Below are positions 208 through 23,535 of a DNA stretch of 24,241 nucleotides, one piece after another; position 1 is the stretch's first letter; the number at the start of each line of letters is the position of its first letter. The notes under the pieces were generated by a model, which had not been told where the DNA came from, did not search any database, and saw only the letters and a program-made list of their open reading frames with translations. The DNA is from a virus: IMG/VR virus record IMGVR_UViG_3300004463_000198, positions 1-24,241 of that record, one strand, 5' to 3'. The translations under genes and the position numbers were made by a program.

Positions 208-248
208 AAATTTAAATAGCTGAAAGTACATTCCGCTGATTTGGTAAA

Positions 249-318
249 GCTTCAGGTCGGAATCGAACCGACGAAATCACATTGGAAGTGTGAAAGTTTA
301 CCACTAACTTACTGAAGC
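249..318 (-). tRNA. tRNA-Gly (anticodon TCC)
   Basis: Full cloverleaf on the minus strand: acceptor GCTTCAG/CTGAAGC (7 bp), TA at positions 8-9, D stem AGTT/AACT with GG in the loop, anticodon stem TCACA/TGTGA with loop CTTCCAA (anticodon TCC), 4-base variable loop, and T arm GTCGG-TTCGATT-CCGAC. No CCA is encoded (the 3' continuation is TTTACC), so the tail must be added by the host nucleotidyltransferase. TCC reads GGA and GGG codons. Confidence 0.93.
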
Positions 319-3238: not shown

Positions 3239-3399
3239 TTACACATACTCGGTTTCTCTGGTCTATCCTTGCAGTAGAAGCATTTCTTATCATTGCAAGG
3301 GGGCGAATTCCATACATCACATCTTTTGCAATATCGGGAATCATATCGTTCGTTATATGACGGTCTCTTATTGCATTTACGGCAATCGAATAGATTCAC
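3235..3399 (-). CDS. Cysteine-rich miniprotein, 54 aa
   Basis: GTG start at 3399 with GAGGG 8 bases upstream. CRKC, CKRC, an isolated Cys, CFYC and a penultimate Cys make eight cysteines in 54 residues, consistent with two small zinc knuckles; the remainder is basic. Function unknown, but nucleic-acid binding is plausible from charge and cysteines. Confidence 0.65.
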   Translation of the reverse strand: MNLFDCRKCNKRPSYNERYDSRYCKRCDVWNSPPCNDKKCFYCKDRPEKPSMCK

Positions 3400-3571
3400 G
3401 ATTTAAGCCCTCATTTTCCTTTTTTCGTGATTTGCATCGGCAATTAGCGTTTGTGCAGTCTGAGGGAGAATCTGGCAGTTCCTTGCCTGTTACAAATTCA
3501 TACGTCCTTCGGGCTATGTCATCCTCAAGATCTTTAGGAAATTTGGATAGGGTGGTTAAATATCTACTCAT
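3377..3571 (-). CDS. Hypothetical protein, 64 aa
   Basis: MSRYLTTLSKFPKDLEDDIA followed by RRTYEFVTGKELPDSP and a basic tail with CTNANCRCKSRKK. It overlaps the preceding gene by ATGA and the next (GTG) gene by 23 bases. No family recognised. Confidence 0.65.
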   Translation of the reverse strand: MSRYLTTLSKFPKDLEDDIARRTYEFVTGKELPDSPSDCTNANCRCKSRKKENEGLNRESIRLP

Positions 3572-4969: not shown

Positions 4970-5334
4970 TTCCCCTTAAGAATTTCTTTGATCTTGTCCA
5001 TCTTTTCTTTATGCGTTGAGTAGAACCTTATGTGATGATCTACGCATTTTTCAAATGCTGACATCTGGGCTTTCTTACAAATATTCATATGCACACCGTA
5101 AGAGCTTACTACATCGCAAAGAGCCGCAAATGTGATGTTTTTATCTTCATGAATGAAATCTATCAGCGCTATTTTAATTTTCGTAGATAATCGGGTTGAA
5201 ATCTTTGCTTTGTAGTCTAGATCGTCTTGTTCTTCATCTTCCTCTGCGTGTTTTTCAACCTCTTGGATCAAGCCATTGAGTTTGTCAAACAGGTTTTCAA
5301 ACAGTTTGTTAATATCATTTTCTTTTTCGGTCAT
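4966..5334 (-). CDS. Hypothetical helical protein, 122 aa
   Basis: The N-terminal third is very acidic (KHAEEDEEQDDLDYK) after a helical segment; the C-terminal two thirds are helical with several lysines and ends KEILKGK. It overlaps the J-domain gene's stop by ATGA, so the two are translationally linked and may act together. No family recognised. Confidence 0.65.
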   Translation of the reverse strand: MTEKENDINKLFENLFDKLNGLIQEVEKHAEEDEEQDDLDYKAKISTRLSTKIKIALIDFIHEDKNITFAALCDVVSSYGVHMNICKKAQMSAFEKCVDHHIRFYSTHKEKMDKIKEILKGK

Positions 5335-5762
5335 TTTGCGTCCTTTTTGGTTTTAGGTTTTTTCTTATCCATGGCAAAAGCATAATAAATATTAACAAGC
5401 GCATTGTATTGACTGCTTCTAATATATCCATTCTCTAAAAGATAATCATTTATTGATTCTGTATAGTCAATTTTAAAGCTTTCATGCGCCTCAGCATAAT
5501 TAATAATTTCGATGATAATATTTAATTTAGGATCTCCTGCCGGAATATCGTCATAAAATTTCTCATAAAACCTTTTTTCTTCTGTTTTTTTAGTTTGCTT
5601 TTTCTTATGGTGACTGCTATTAACATACTCTAAAGAAACGTCGTAGGCATCCTTCAAAAGGCTCATTAATTCATTGCACCCTCCATAATCCGGATGGAGT
5701 TTCATAGCTAATTTTCGGAATAGTGTTTTTACTTCTTTTTCGTCTTTGCATTTACTAAACAT
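5331..5762 (-). CDS. J-domain (DnaJ-like) co-chaperone, 143 aa
   Basis: Residues 10-40 carry the J-domain core: VKTLFRKLAMKLHPDYGG with the invariant HPD at 23-25, then LLKDAYDVSLEY as helix III. Helix I is short or missing. J-domains stimulate the ATPase of DnaK/Hsp70, so this protein may recruit the host Hsp70. After a basic linker (HHKKKQTKKTEEK) the C-terminal ~80 residues are an unknown helical region. Start at ATG 5762 follows AGGT and lies just after the initiator's stop; the longer frame to 5837 would overlap that gene by 58 bases. Phage J-like proteins of this size are known, usually near replication genes, as here. Confidence 0.8.
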   Translation of the reverse strand: MFSKCKDEKEVKTLFRKLAMKLHPDYGGCNELMSLLKDAYDVSLEYVNSSHHKKKQTKKTEEKRFYEKFYDDIPAGDPKLNIIIEIINYAEAHESFKIDYTESINDYLLENGYIRSSQYNALVNIYYAFAMDKKKPKTKKDAK

Positions 5763-5779
5763 TTTACCTGTTTTGTGTA

Positions 5780-6703
5780 TTAAAGTTTTGAGTTTTCCCA
5801 GTAACGCCTTTGTAAAATCCCTACAAAATAGGCACATTTATCCGCTATGTTTTTGCCCTTAGACTTGTTTTTGGATTTTTGTTTTTTGTAGTATTCTGCC
5901 GCTTTTTCGAATTCTAGGGGACTATATTTTTTAGCTAATTTGATAGCTGACTTTTCATCAAAATCATTCTGAATCAAAGCTTCGAAGGAATTCCTTTGTT
6001 CTGCTGAAAGTGACATAATCTCCCTTTCAATTTTTGAAAGACACACAGAATCGGGATCGTGAGATTCCGTGGGTTGTTGTTTCCTAAACAAAGAGATCTT
6101 GTTAAGAGAGATGTTATTACGTTCACCACATGAATCTGTTCCTAGGTGATCAGATTCACCACATGAATCTGTATCGACCAGAGATTCACCACATGAATCT
6201 GTATCGTTCATAACTTGCTCTTGTCGACCATATTGATTTTGAAATTTTACTGTCGCCATGAAAGCATTATTCCAAGCCCAAATGTTTATGACCGTATAGA
6301 CGCAAAAAGTAGTTCCGAACTTTCGACCATCTTTCTTATCTTCTAGCTTCTTTGATTTTCTTTTTTCAATGATAAGCGCATTACCATCCAATTGATCCAT
6401 TGGCTGTAAAAGTTCTTTCTTCGCTTTTACAATCATCCCTACTGAGCAACCGATCTTTAAGGCTAAAGACTCTGTGCAATTCCAACATACTCCATTATCT
6501 GAGGCCACCATTCTAATTATTCGATAAAGCTCCTTAGCATAAACGGATAGCCTCTTGACAGTCTTCTTTTTGCCATCTATGACGGTATAGGTTAGGTGAT
6601 CAATGATGTTCGGAACTCGAGTATAGGACTTCGGCTCTGCGTTTTGGAATTGATATGCGTATTGTTCAGATACGCTCAAAGGCTCTTTTTTTGACTTGCT
6701 CAT
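5780..6703 (-). CDS. Phage replication initiator, helix-turn-helix type, 307 aa
   Basis: The N-terminal half has the layout of phage/plasmid replication initiators with a winged helix: VPNIIDHLTYTV, LSVYAKELYRIIRMVAS, then TESLALKIGCSVGMIVKAKK as the probable recognition element and ALIIEKRK as the wing. Residues 167-195 contain three copies of TDSCGE(S/R), encoded by near-identical DNA repeats. The C-terminal part (SAEQRNSFEALIQNDFDEKS onward) is helical and basic and may contact helicase or loader proteins. Placement between the repressor and a J-domain gene supports a replication role. Lambda O has the same plan, with its origin inside the initiator gene. A DnaD-type loader is an alternative. 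Confidence 0.75.
   Translation of the reverse strand: MSKSKKEPLSVSEQYAYQFQNAEPKSYTRVPNIIDHLTYTVIDGKKKTVKRLSVYAKELYRIIRMVASDNGVCWNCTESLALKIGCSVGMIVKAKKELLQPMDQLDGNALIIEKRKSKKLEDKKDGRKFGTTFCVYTVINIWAWNNAFMATVKFQNQYGRQEQVMNDTDSCGESLVDTDSCGESDHLGTDSCGERNNISLNKISLFRKQQPTESHDPDSVCLSKIEREIMSLSAEQRNSFEALIQNDFDEKSAIKLAKKYSPLEFEKAAEYYKKQKSKNKSKGKNIADKCAYFVGILQRRYWENSKL
6122..6202. repeat. Three iteron-like dyad repeats inside the initiator gene, candidate replication origin
   Basis: The 18-base unit TTCACCACATGAATCTGT occurs exactly three times, at 6122-6139, 6155-6172 and 6185-6202 (steps of 33 and 30). The last two are extended on the left to GATTCA-CCACA-TGAATC, a 6-bp inverted repeat. Step lengths near three helical turns would place the dyads on one face of the DNA. 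Spacing and position match the iteron origin within lambda O. The coding frame has absorbed them as TDSCGES repeats. Confidence 0.65.
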
Positions 6704-6896: not shown

Positions 6897-6984
6897 ATCT
6901 CATATAAATAACGCCATTCCACCCGAAATAATCAATTTTGCGGGATAAAAGTAGTTGCATTAAATCATCAATAGATAGTATCAT
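6880..6984 (-). CDS. Possible small protein, 34 aa
   Basis: MILSIDDLMQLLLSRKIDYF then GWNGVIYMRSDRFF. The frame stays open about 20 codons upstream of the ATG with protein-like composition, but no ATG, GTG or TTG occurs there. AAGGA lies 14 bases before the ATG, rather far. It could be a small gene or the remnant of a longer one. Its 3' end overlaps the hairpin pair at 6845-6896. Confidence 0.35.
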   Translation of the reverse strand: MILSIDDLMQLLLSRKIDYFGWNGVIYMRSDRFF

Positions 6985-8285: not shown

Positions 8286-9146
8286 ATGACAAGTATCGTT
8301 GACGTTTCAGGATTAAAAAATTCAAAATCATTAGCAGGACAAGGAAATATGACAGTCACAGTACAACAAAAACAAGAGATAGCTTACTTCAATCCAGACC
8401 AAGTAGCTCTAATCAAAAACTACCTATGCAAAGGCATCAATGACGAGGAACTAAAGCTTTTCCATGCGGTATGTAAGAAAACAGGGCTTGATCCTTTTAT
8501 GAAGCAGATTTACGCAGTTAAAAGGAATGGTAAGGATGGCCCGCAAATGACGATCCAAACGTCGATCGACGGATACCGTTTAATTGCTGAAAGAACCGGA
8601 AAATATTGTCCTGGAAGACGATCTACTTTTGAATACAAAGATGGGAAAGTTTCAAGTGCTACCGCCTACATCAAAAAGCAAACTGCTGACGGAACATGGC
8701 ATGAAGTTGAAGAAACGGCATATTATTCCGAATATGCACCACCTGTGACTAAAAACGGTTATGAAAATCCTTTCTGGCGCGATAAACCACATATCATGCT
8801 TGCAAAATGCGCTGAGGCTCTTGCCTTGCGTAAAAGCTTTCCAAATGAGCTTTCATCTGTTTATACAAAGGAAGAAATGGATCAGGCGGTCAATACTGAA
8901 ATAAATGCTAAGTCTGTGAAACCTATTGAGATTGTTTCACTAAATCAAGCGGCTGAACTAGATACTCTTTTGATATCCTGTACATTGGAGTATCAAGAAA
9001 AGTTTGTTTCTTGGCTAAAGGAAAGAAAAGGCATAGAGTCTTTAGAATACCTCCCATTGGAATGCTACGAAAACATAAAGCAAAGACTAACTGCTAAAGC
9101 TCAAGAAAACACGACCAAATACGGAGAAGATGCGATTAATGGGTAA
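8286..9146 (+). CDS. bet: Phage recombination protein Bet (Red-beta-like single-strand annealing protein), 286 aa
   Basis: The central region matches the Bet family of phage annealing proteins: ELKLFHAVCKKTGLDPF, then QIYAVKRNGKDGPQMTIQTS, IDGYRLIAERTGKY, and AYYSEYAPPVTKNG leading to WRDKPHIMLAKCAEALALRK. Such proteins coat and anneal complementary single-stranded DNA during phage recombination and replication. The first ~30 residues and the last ~80 are less conserved; the C-terminal part may bind a partner such as host SSB. The gene overlaps the exonuclease gene by 8 to 17 bases, the usual exo/bet pairing. Confidence 0.93.
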   Translation: MTSIVDVSGLKNSKSLAGQGNMTVTVQQKQEIAYFNPDQVALIKNYLCKGINDEELKLFHAVCKKTGLDPFMKQIYAVKRNGKDGPQMTIQTSIDGYRLIAERTGKYCPGRRSTFEYKDGKVSSATAYIKKQTADGTWHEVEETAYYSEYAPPVTKNGYENPFWRDKPHIMLAKCAEALALRKSFPNELSSVYTKEEMDQAVNTEINAKSVKPIEIVSLNQAAELDTLLISCTLEYQEKFVSWLKERKGIESLEYLPLECYENIKQRLTAKAQENTTKYGEDAING

Positions 9147-10047
9147 TACTAACGAACCTCACCTGATCCAGAGATCCCCCGAGTGGCTTAAATGGCGCCG
9201 GGGTAAAATTACGGCAACTGACGCATGTGTTTTGATGAATGGCATTCATTTTGGAAAAACCGTCCTTGATCTCTACAATGAAAAAACGAACGATCTGGAA
9301 ATTCCGGATAGTTCAAACTTTGCTATGCGTAGAGGGGTGGAATTAGAACCCCTCGCATTAGCTAAATTTGAGGAAGAGACGGGATATCTTATGACACCTA
9401 GAGTTATGACTGATTTTTTTACTCCTTGGCGTTCTGCTAGCTTAGACGGGTATGAAATCGAAGGTAAATGCGCGGTCGAGGCGAAATGCCCCGGAAAAGA
9501 AGATCACGCTCTTGCTTTAAAAGGCATAGTTCCTGAAAAATATATCCCTCAGTTACAGCATCAAATGCTTGTTACTGGACTGGAAGAAATATACTACATG
9601 AGCTATGTTTCTGACTCCGATTTCACAATTTTCACAGTAAAGAAGGATCATGACTATACCCAAAGACTTATTACAGCAGAACTCGAATTCTGGAAACGAA
9701 TTCAAGACCGAAATCCCCCGGAGCCAACCGATAGAGATTATCAAGAAATCACATCGGCAGAATGGGAAAATCTTAGCAATCAATACGCAGGCTTATGCAC
9801 AGTCGAAAAAGACTACAAATGTAAGCTTGAAAGTATCGAATCCATCAAAAACGAGATCAAAGACAAGCTCCTTTTGCTTTCGAATAACAGATCGGCGTAT
9901 GGAGCAGGGATCAAGCTTTCAAAAGTTGTTAGACGAGGACATTTCGATTATGCAGCAATCCAGAATGCTGTCGGATTTGATTTAGAGCCTTTTAGGAAAC
10001 CGTCAACGGAATACTGGAAAGTTAGTTTTAAGGGGGATGAGGAATGA
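9130..10047 (+). CDS. YqaJ-type phage recombination exonuclease, 305 aa
   Basis: Contains the lambda-exonuclease-like motifs of the YqaJ family in order: QRSPEWLKWRRGKITATDAC (residues 14-33), RRGVELEPLA (67-76), SLDG with Asp106, VEAKCPG with Glu117 and Lys119, and YIPQLQHQM (138-146). Asp106, Glu117 and Lys119 form the metal-dependent nuclease centre. The enzyme resects one DNA strand to give the single strands that the upstream Bet protein anneals. The start may be 9130 (MRLMGN) or 9139 (MGNTNE); GGAGA lies 3 or 12 bases upstream, so the sequence does not decide. Confidence 0.93.
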   Translation: MRLMGNTNEPHLIQRSPEWLKWRRGKITATDACVLMNGIHFGKTVLDLYNEKTNDLEIPDSSNFAMRRGVELEPLALAKFEEETGYLMTPRVMTDFFTPWRSASLDGYEIEGKCAVEAKCPGKEDHALALKGIVPEKYIPQLQHQMLVTGLEEIYYMSYVSDSDFTIFTVKKDHDYTQRLITAELEFWKRIQDRNPPEPTDRDYQEITSAEWENLSNQYAGLCTVEKDYKCKLESIESIKNEIKDKLLLLSNNRSAYGAGIKLSKVVRRGHFDYAAIQNAVGFDLEPFRKPSTEYWKVSFKGDEE

Positions 10048-10877: not shown

Positions 10878-12479
<1,602 letters not shown>

Positions 12480-12490
12480 TTACAACCTTT

Positions 12491-12748
12491 TTATAAAATT
12501 CCTACGATGTCTGAAACTTTGGCTATGATATAGGTCTTTTCATCTAAAACAATCTCATGCCCCATATACCTATCAAGAAGAACGACATCCCCTACTTTTA
12601 CAGGGTATTCTTCATCTGTTCCTAATGCTACTACTTCAAGCTCGTTCTGTGGTTTTTTTGCGCTATCAGGCAATAGAAGACCGCCTGCACTCTTTTCATC
12701 TGTTTCAATGCGTTTAAGTAGAACGCGATCGCCCAATGGTTTAAACAT
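12491..12748 (-). CDS. groES: Phage-encoded co-chaperonin GroES (Hsp10), 85 aa
   Basis: Begins MFKPLGDRVLLKR, the standard GroES opening; the mobile loop (DEKSAGGLLLPDSAKK) contains the GG-L-L-LP contact for GroEL. VKVGDVVLLDRYMGHEI follows, then the C-terminal strand. GroES caps the GroEL ring. ATG 12748 follows AGGAGAAG and overlaps the upstream stop as TGATG. A start at 12766 (MYRRRL) is rejected because it would lie inside the upstream gene. The length is slightly short for bacterial GroES (95-100), mainly in the roof loop. Confidence 0.97.
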   Translation of the reverse strand: MFKPLGDRVLLKRIETDEKSAGGLLLPDSAKKPQNELEVVALGTDEEYPVKVGDVVLLDRYMGHEIVLDEKTYIIAKVSDIVGIL

Positions 12749-23052: not shown

Positions 23053-23535
23053 TCAATTTTTTAGGTAGTTTGCCACTACGATTGCTTGGCTTAATGATAC
23101 ACCAAGTGGATTTGTAAAATAAACATTTGTATCATCAAGGTAAACTGTTATCCCCATAATCGAAAATCTTTTAGGGCTTGCGTCAGTACTTGTACAGCTT
23201 GCATAGATTAAATCTGACTCTTTTAGACCTGTGATGTTGTGTGGGAAAACAACTGCTGCTCCAGCTCCTATATTTCCTGCGTTTAACGCAACTAAGTCAA
23301 AAACCTTTCGATAGGAATTTCTTGTGCTCTGTGGATTTGCAGGAGTAAAGAACTTCCTGAAGTTAGCCACTTCACTCAGGGTATACAAAGCCCCCTCTTT
23401 GGTGTTGGAGCTATCAGCGATGCGCTTATAGGTTAGAGAAAGTACCTCATTAAAATTAGCGTCGTCAGTATCAGGAAACTCAATAGAAATAGGGAGCTGA
23501 TTAGATTGTATTGGATTATCACTTGTAAAAGACAT
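23053..23535 (-). CDS. Virion structural protein, 160 aa
   Basis: MSFTSDNPIQSNQLPISIEF then FNEVLSLTYKRIADSSNT, an opening I have seen in phage structural proteins of unknown role. The remainder is beta-rich (NAGNIGAGAAVVFPHNITGL, RFSIMGITVYLDDTNVYF). Possibly a tail or neck component. Neighbours on both sides are structural. Confidence 0.6.
   Translation of the reverse strand: MSFTSDNPIQSNQLPISIEFPDTDDANFNEVLSLTYKRIADSSNTKEGALYTLSEVANFRKFFTPANPQSTRNSYRKVFDLVALNAGNIGAGAAVVFPHNITGLKESDLIYASCTSTDASPKRFSIMGITVYLDDTNVYFTNPLGVSLSQAIVVANYLKN

Follow-up and report, generated by a model that had tools for sequence, protein, structure and literature searches.

Symmetric repeats within an HTH_36-class initiator gene form a putative iteron origin with counterparts in divergent phages and plasmids

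The window, by which we mean the whole 24,241-base stretch of virus DNA that was analyzed, carries on its minus strand an open reading frame (5780-6703) encoding a putative replication initiator of 307 aa. In an AF2 model of this protein, residues ~31-150 form a wHTH domain and residues 223-304 a helical C-terminal part, with a segment predicted to be disordered (159-222) between them. The initiator gene is overlapped downstream by a minus-strand gene (5331-5837) for a J-domain-like protein of 168 aa that contains an HPD motif and matches PF00226 below its cut-off (E 2.1e-4). Elsewhere in the window, a RecT-type annealing protein and a YqaJ/RecE-type exonuclease are encoded on the plus strand at 8286-10047, pointing away from the initiator, and a pair of these types likewise lies close to the initiator of the viral contig L009. 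A full-length groEL (10878-12479, minus strand), scoring 820 bits against the GroEL equivalog model and above its cut-off, neighbors a groES-like gene (12491-12748, minus strand) that scores under curated cut-offs, and a tRNA-Gly (tcc) gene (248-318, minus strand) is found close to the left end of the record. The GroEL motifs, which we take to resemble the chlamydia type, might hint at the host.

The initial annotation described three identical 18-mers inside the initiator coding sequence, spaced 33 and 30 bases apart, two of them with a 6-bp dyad, and read them as an iteron-like origin. The 18-mer TTCACCACATGAATCTGT indeed occurs exactly at 6122-6139, 6155-6172 and 6185-6202, with start-to-start distances of 33 and 30, and all three copies fall within the initiator open reading frame. 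The dyad is likewise present in two copies, with arms that proved to be 7 bp long instead of 6: the full repeat unit is a 19-mer, AGATTCACCACATGAATCT, in which 7-bp arms flank a CCACA center (AGATTCA-CCACA-TGAATCT). Numbered in gene order and given on the plus strand, iteron 1 (6182-6200) and iteron 2 (6152-6170) are perfect copies of this unit and of its dyad, while iteron 3 (6119-6137) has two mismatches to the 19-mer, keeps the core TTCACCACATGAA intact and pairs without interruption only over its inner 4 bp (TTCA/TGAA). Allowing up to three mismatches, 0.01 matches to the 19-mer are expected by chance in the window, and none of 100 dinucleotide shuffles reached three; the dyad-plus-repeat score of the gene also exceeded that of all 300 codon shuffles. 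The array DNA encodes part of the linker that the AF2 model predicts to be disordered and is translated as TDSCGES, TDSCGES and TDSCGER. The three TDSCGE(S/R) units that had been noted as an imprint of the array on the protein are thus present, but they show no conserved peptide role, as their sequence varies among relatives. Several symmetric sites within the initiator's own coding sequence, as found here, are one hallmark of initiator-gene-embedded iteron origins as a general kind.

The family assignment of the window protein draws on its homologs. Its own match to HTH_36 (PF13730; E 0.008) lies below the Pfam cut-off of 25 bits, which is exceeded by two close homologs, L028 (E 6.4e-6, 26.3 bits) and L007 (E 1.4e-5, 25.2 bits). 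Similarly, the window protein has no PHROG match above noise, while L028, with 59% overall identity to it, matches the replication initiation protein family phrog_270 (1.2e-5), and the more distant L015 matches both phrog_270 (3.7e-11) and the replication initiation O-like family phrog_391 (8e-9). Neither RepA_N (PF06970) nor Phage_rep_O (PF04492) matched the window protein at E 0.1, the resemblance to RepA_N being at fold level only. In structural comparisons, the wHTH region aligned with the solved plasmid initiators 4pt7 (Z 7.9), 4pql, 5kbj (a Rep-DNA complex; Z 7.5) and 4pta, over a range of Z 7.4-7.9, and with the DnaD N-terminal domain 2v79 (Z 6.8); such values are middling and common among wHTH folds, and they indicate a shared fold class only. 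A sequence search of the PDB gave weak matches, the best of them to the chromosome replication initiation protein 2vn2 (E 0.034). By sequence, the window protein is therefore best placed among HTH_36 initiators with a putative embedded origin, and with neither RepA_N nor Phage_rep_O.

The window protein alone found no relatives among viral contigs, where a four-sequence profile was needed; tblastn with the window and L028 proteins returned none from 50,697 named phages, and neither did a profile search of genome contigs. Scanning viral contigs with a 17-mer identified L007 and L009, whose 294-aa initiator shares 36% identity with the window protein over nearly its full length (E 2e-45). Within this initiator gene, the same linker region carries GGTTCACCACATGAA three times, twice with TCTGCC after it, but the repeats are inverted with respect to the gene and are translated as AGSPHES, as against TDSCGES in the window. 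L004, L005, L006, L008, L010 and L011 each gave a single-copy match within an unrelated gene, which we attributed to chance, and the degenerate intergenic repeats of L036 (Pseudomonas), which are probably REP-like, were set aside. A mixed profile, A2, proved too heterogeneous to be used in pattern searches.

A scan for paired instances of TTCACCNNNTGAA, combined with a wHTH profile built from the pre-repeat part only, yielded 39 array-bearing initiators in 34 clusters. Across these genes, translation of TTCACCNNNTGAA or its mirror gives SPxE, VHxMN, SxGE and VxxVN, which together represent all four frames that lack a built-in TGA stop. Reading frames are often mixed inside single genes, as in L012, where successive sites are translated as SPHE, VHHMN, SPHE, VHHMN and VHLVN at spacings of 23, 19, 20 and 21, and 25 of the 87 spacings in the set are not divisible by 3. 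Furthermore, at positions where the window gene and its four closest homologs encode the same residue, each pairwise comparison shows full codon identity inside the sites (9-12 codons per pair), as against 43-56% outside them; four of these five sequences had been chosen partly or wholly by DNA pattern, and L028 by protein alone.

We also examined homologs recovered through their protein sequence, using queries that came from array-bearing members, so that the resulting set is partly dependent on them. Ten of the 11 non-redundant homologs (L028, L033, L121, L122, L123, L128, L132, L134, L139 and L141) surpassed all 300 codon shuffles in repeated dyads, and only L130 gave no significant array under this test; the count omits L129, nearly identical to the seed L119, and L131, in which the open frame is cut short. 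In some of these homologs both arms of the dyad have changed symmetrically, giving CTCACCACATGAG in L128, GTTCCCCACAGGAAC in L134 and four instances of GTTCAAAATTTGAAC in L139, a pattern that would be expected of a site bound by a symmetric pair of proteins. In L139, which belongs to a Chloroflexota genome, the four instances are perfect 15-bp palindromes within an initiator-like gene (~1849-1955), spaced at 31, 29 and 31 and alternating between two frames. In L141 (Nostoc sphaeroides plasmid p3), a wHTH gene beside dnaB contains three copies of TAGGTCTGACAGAGCTA (~3363-3435), an imperfect dyad, at spacings of 22 and 23 and in different frames; this array is likely to be an unannotated plasmid origin. 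In Geobacillus E2 ORF39 (L140) we found no array comparable to those following the wHTH domain elsewhere, only a weak dyad pair that 1 of 300 shuffles also reached.

Conservation at the DNA as opposed to the peptide level had been set beforehand as the comparison capable of refuting the origin reading. Its outcome was that the dyad is kept while peptide, frame and strand vary: the site is retained as DNA regardless of the peptide it encodes, in four frames and both orientations and with invariant codons. This supports the iteron-like reading, with a working origin as its probable consequence. Since relatives keep the DNA site while reading it in different frames, the site is very probably the place at which the initiator would bind to have the genome copied.

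Family spacings fall mainly at 20-23 or 30-34 bp, and the window spacings of 30 and 33 straddle three helical turns. Of the 87 spacings in the array-bearing genes, 40 equal 21 bp exactly and 78 come within 2.5 bp of a multiple of 10.5; the 21-bp peak and the periodicity of codons dominate this last figure, which is supportive only. In 29 of 33 family members, the 60-bp flank 3' of the array in gene direction is AT-richer than the gene mean (Wilcoxon 1.5e-6), and in 25 of 33 it is AT-richer than the flank on the 5' side (p 0.0013), an excess to which Lys/Asn-rich coding could contribute. In the window, the corresponding candidate unwinding tract (6059-6118, minus strand) has an AT content of 0.63, rising to 0.68 in the nearest 40 bp, against a gene mean of 0.63. 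Across the family, where the signal is clear, a role for this flank in unwinding is plausible; in the window the excess is slight. Cumulative GC skew was dropped as a line of evidence, neither for nor against an origin. Skew tracks gene direction throughout the window (-0.05 to -0.13 in minus blocks, 0.10 to 0.20 in plus blocks), and the cumulative curve has a local minimum at 6924, at or near the point where genes change direction, and its lowest point in the contig at 23309; because skew mirrors gene orientation, it is uninformative on the origin.

The genes adjoining the initiator vary among family members. In L033 the initiator is followed by an IstB/DnaC-like ATPase gene (1.7e-12), and the J-domain-like gene of the window occupies the position of this helicase-loader gene. 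L110 also encodes a J-domain-like protein with an HPD motif (8662-9096, plus strand) directly downstream of its initiator, and in the other members inspected the next gene is unrelated to the J-domain-like protein of the window and L110. Replication of lambda requires the host DnaJ/DnaK machine for release of its helicase loader, and by analogy the presence of a phage-encoded J-domain beside the initiator is suggestive, and nothing beyond that.

Known systems offer several parallels to this layout. The initial annotation had likened the array to the lambda origin within the O gene, a comparison that holds in detail: both place dyad iterons in the initiator gene past an N-terminal DNA-binding domain, and the iterons in O (39034, 39054, 39078 and 39101) occur in mixed frames at spacings of 20, 24 and 23 bp, starting at about codon 117, against about codon 168 in the window gene. 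In lambda, an AT-rich tract follows the iterons (PMC7466680). The two differ in iteron type (CCCTCAAAACGAGGG in lambda) and initiator family, and where lambda has a P-type loader none was identified in the window, the J-domain-like protein following the initiator instead. The closest match, as judged from published descriptions, is the layout of the RepA_N plasmids pSK41 and pPR9. The N-terminal wHTH domain of the pSK41 initiator binds four Rep boxes located centrally in rep, the origin encodes a dispensable linker, and the N- and C-terminal domains of the initiator are both DnaD-like, the latter contacting primase; in the pPR9 variant, a pfam13730 (HTH_36) module with a relationship to a phage replication protein takes the place of the N-terminal domain and origin (~500 bp), and the pPR9 rep region replicates autonomously (PMC5703833). 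Unlike the window, these are staphylococcal plasmids, and the window protein has no PF06970 match. The gp38 replisome organizer of SPP1 is likewise encoded by a gene that contains an origin, oriL, in which direct repeats accompany an unwinding element (PMC6316719). This resembles the window array in layout, by description, as origin-type repeats within a phage initiator gene, but SPP1 has a distant second origin, whereas no second array was found in the window. Finally, DnaD-like phage replisome organizers (phrog_186, DnaB_2) combine a wHTH domain with a helical C-terminal part, as does the window family. One family member, L018, has a DnaB_2 (DnaD-type) C-terminus (5.9e-6), but a Pfam search gave no such match in the C-terminal region of the window protein.

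Three other explanations of the array were weighed. An operator, through which the wHTH protein would shut down transcription of its own gene or form a roadblock while the origin lay elsewhere, is unlikely, though it is the most serious of them. wHTH proteins are frequently repressors, and the same site is also found outside large genes, in pairs with a spacing of 21 or 31-32 bp, in L014 (7044-7087), L022 (6480-6523), L026 (3794-3827), L035 (2211-2255) and L040 (3393-3437), those of L014, L022 and L026 lying upstream of a different small wHTH protein, as is typical of operators. Against this, in every member that was dissected the array sits in the middle of the gene, after the wHTH domain and away from the promoter; the family shows matches to replication initiators, with dnaB or helicase-loader genes among its neighbors; and the same layout serves as an origin in lambda and pSK41 (PMC7466680, PMC5703833). 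Operator and origin roles could also coexist in the array. The small wHTH-like proteins encoded below the L014, L022 and L026 pairs are of the FINPWLFCKG type, that of L022 being weakly O-like (phrog_678, 5e-4), and the extragenic pairs may serve a second class of initiators as its origin or operator. It is very improbable that the repeats are neutral or selfish products of replication slippage or recombination with no binding role: copies within a gene are often identical, as recent duplication or conversion predicts, but the same dyad occupies the same place in initiators with less than 25% overall identity, its two arms change together and its spacing stays near helical turns. That TDSCGE(S/R) was kept for a protein function, for instance as a metal-binding or protein-interaction motif, with the DNA similarity left by recent duplication, is hardly credible, for although TDS(C/Y/W/H)GE-like units recur with unchanged spacing in close homologs, others read the same DNA as SPHE, VHHMN or VHVVN, the invariant codons lie in a segment predicted to be disordered, the variable residue coincides with the dyad spacer, and the frame mixing, strand switch and spacings that are not multiples of 3 leave no peptide function able to account for the pattern, which refutes this reading.

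Together, these results make it highly probable that the repeats are an iteron origin embedded in the gene of its own HTH_36-class initiator. The iterons would be the binding sites of the encoded protein, set where the gene encodes the flexible linker between the wHTH domain and the helical C-terminal domain. wHTH domains would line up on the symmetric sites along a single face of the helix, as spacings near two or three turns would allow, and the assembled complex would melt the A-rich flank 3' of the array in gene direction. The host helicase and primase would then be recruited by the C-terminal domain or by the protein that the next gene encodes, and replication would start at the array.

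Origins of this kind are already known; what is new, as far as we searched, is a dyad common to very divergent phages and plasmids that moves freely between frames and strands, and we found no mention of the exact motif in the open-access literature. We lean, with some reservation, towards the broader view that a single symmetric site near TTCACC-N-GGTGAA, with its symmetric variants, defines a widespread and previously unrecorded class of initiator-embedded origins across such elements, in which the site slips freely between the strands and frames of the linker at spacings near whole turns, and a wHTH-plus-iteron module is joined to varied C-terminal helicase-recruiting domains. The switching of frame and strand provides an argument, independent of experiment, for a DNA-level function within coding sequence. 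The resulting signature consists of TTCACC/GGTGAA dyads that recur, in whichever frame is open, just past an HTH_36 wHTH domain. It would locate the origin and predict where the initiator binds in some plasmids and many uncultured phages that have neither annotated.
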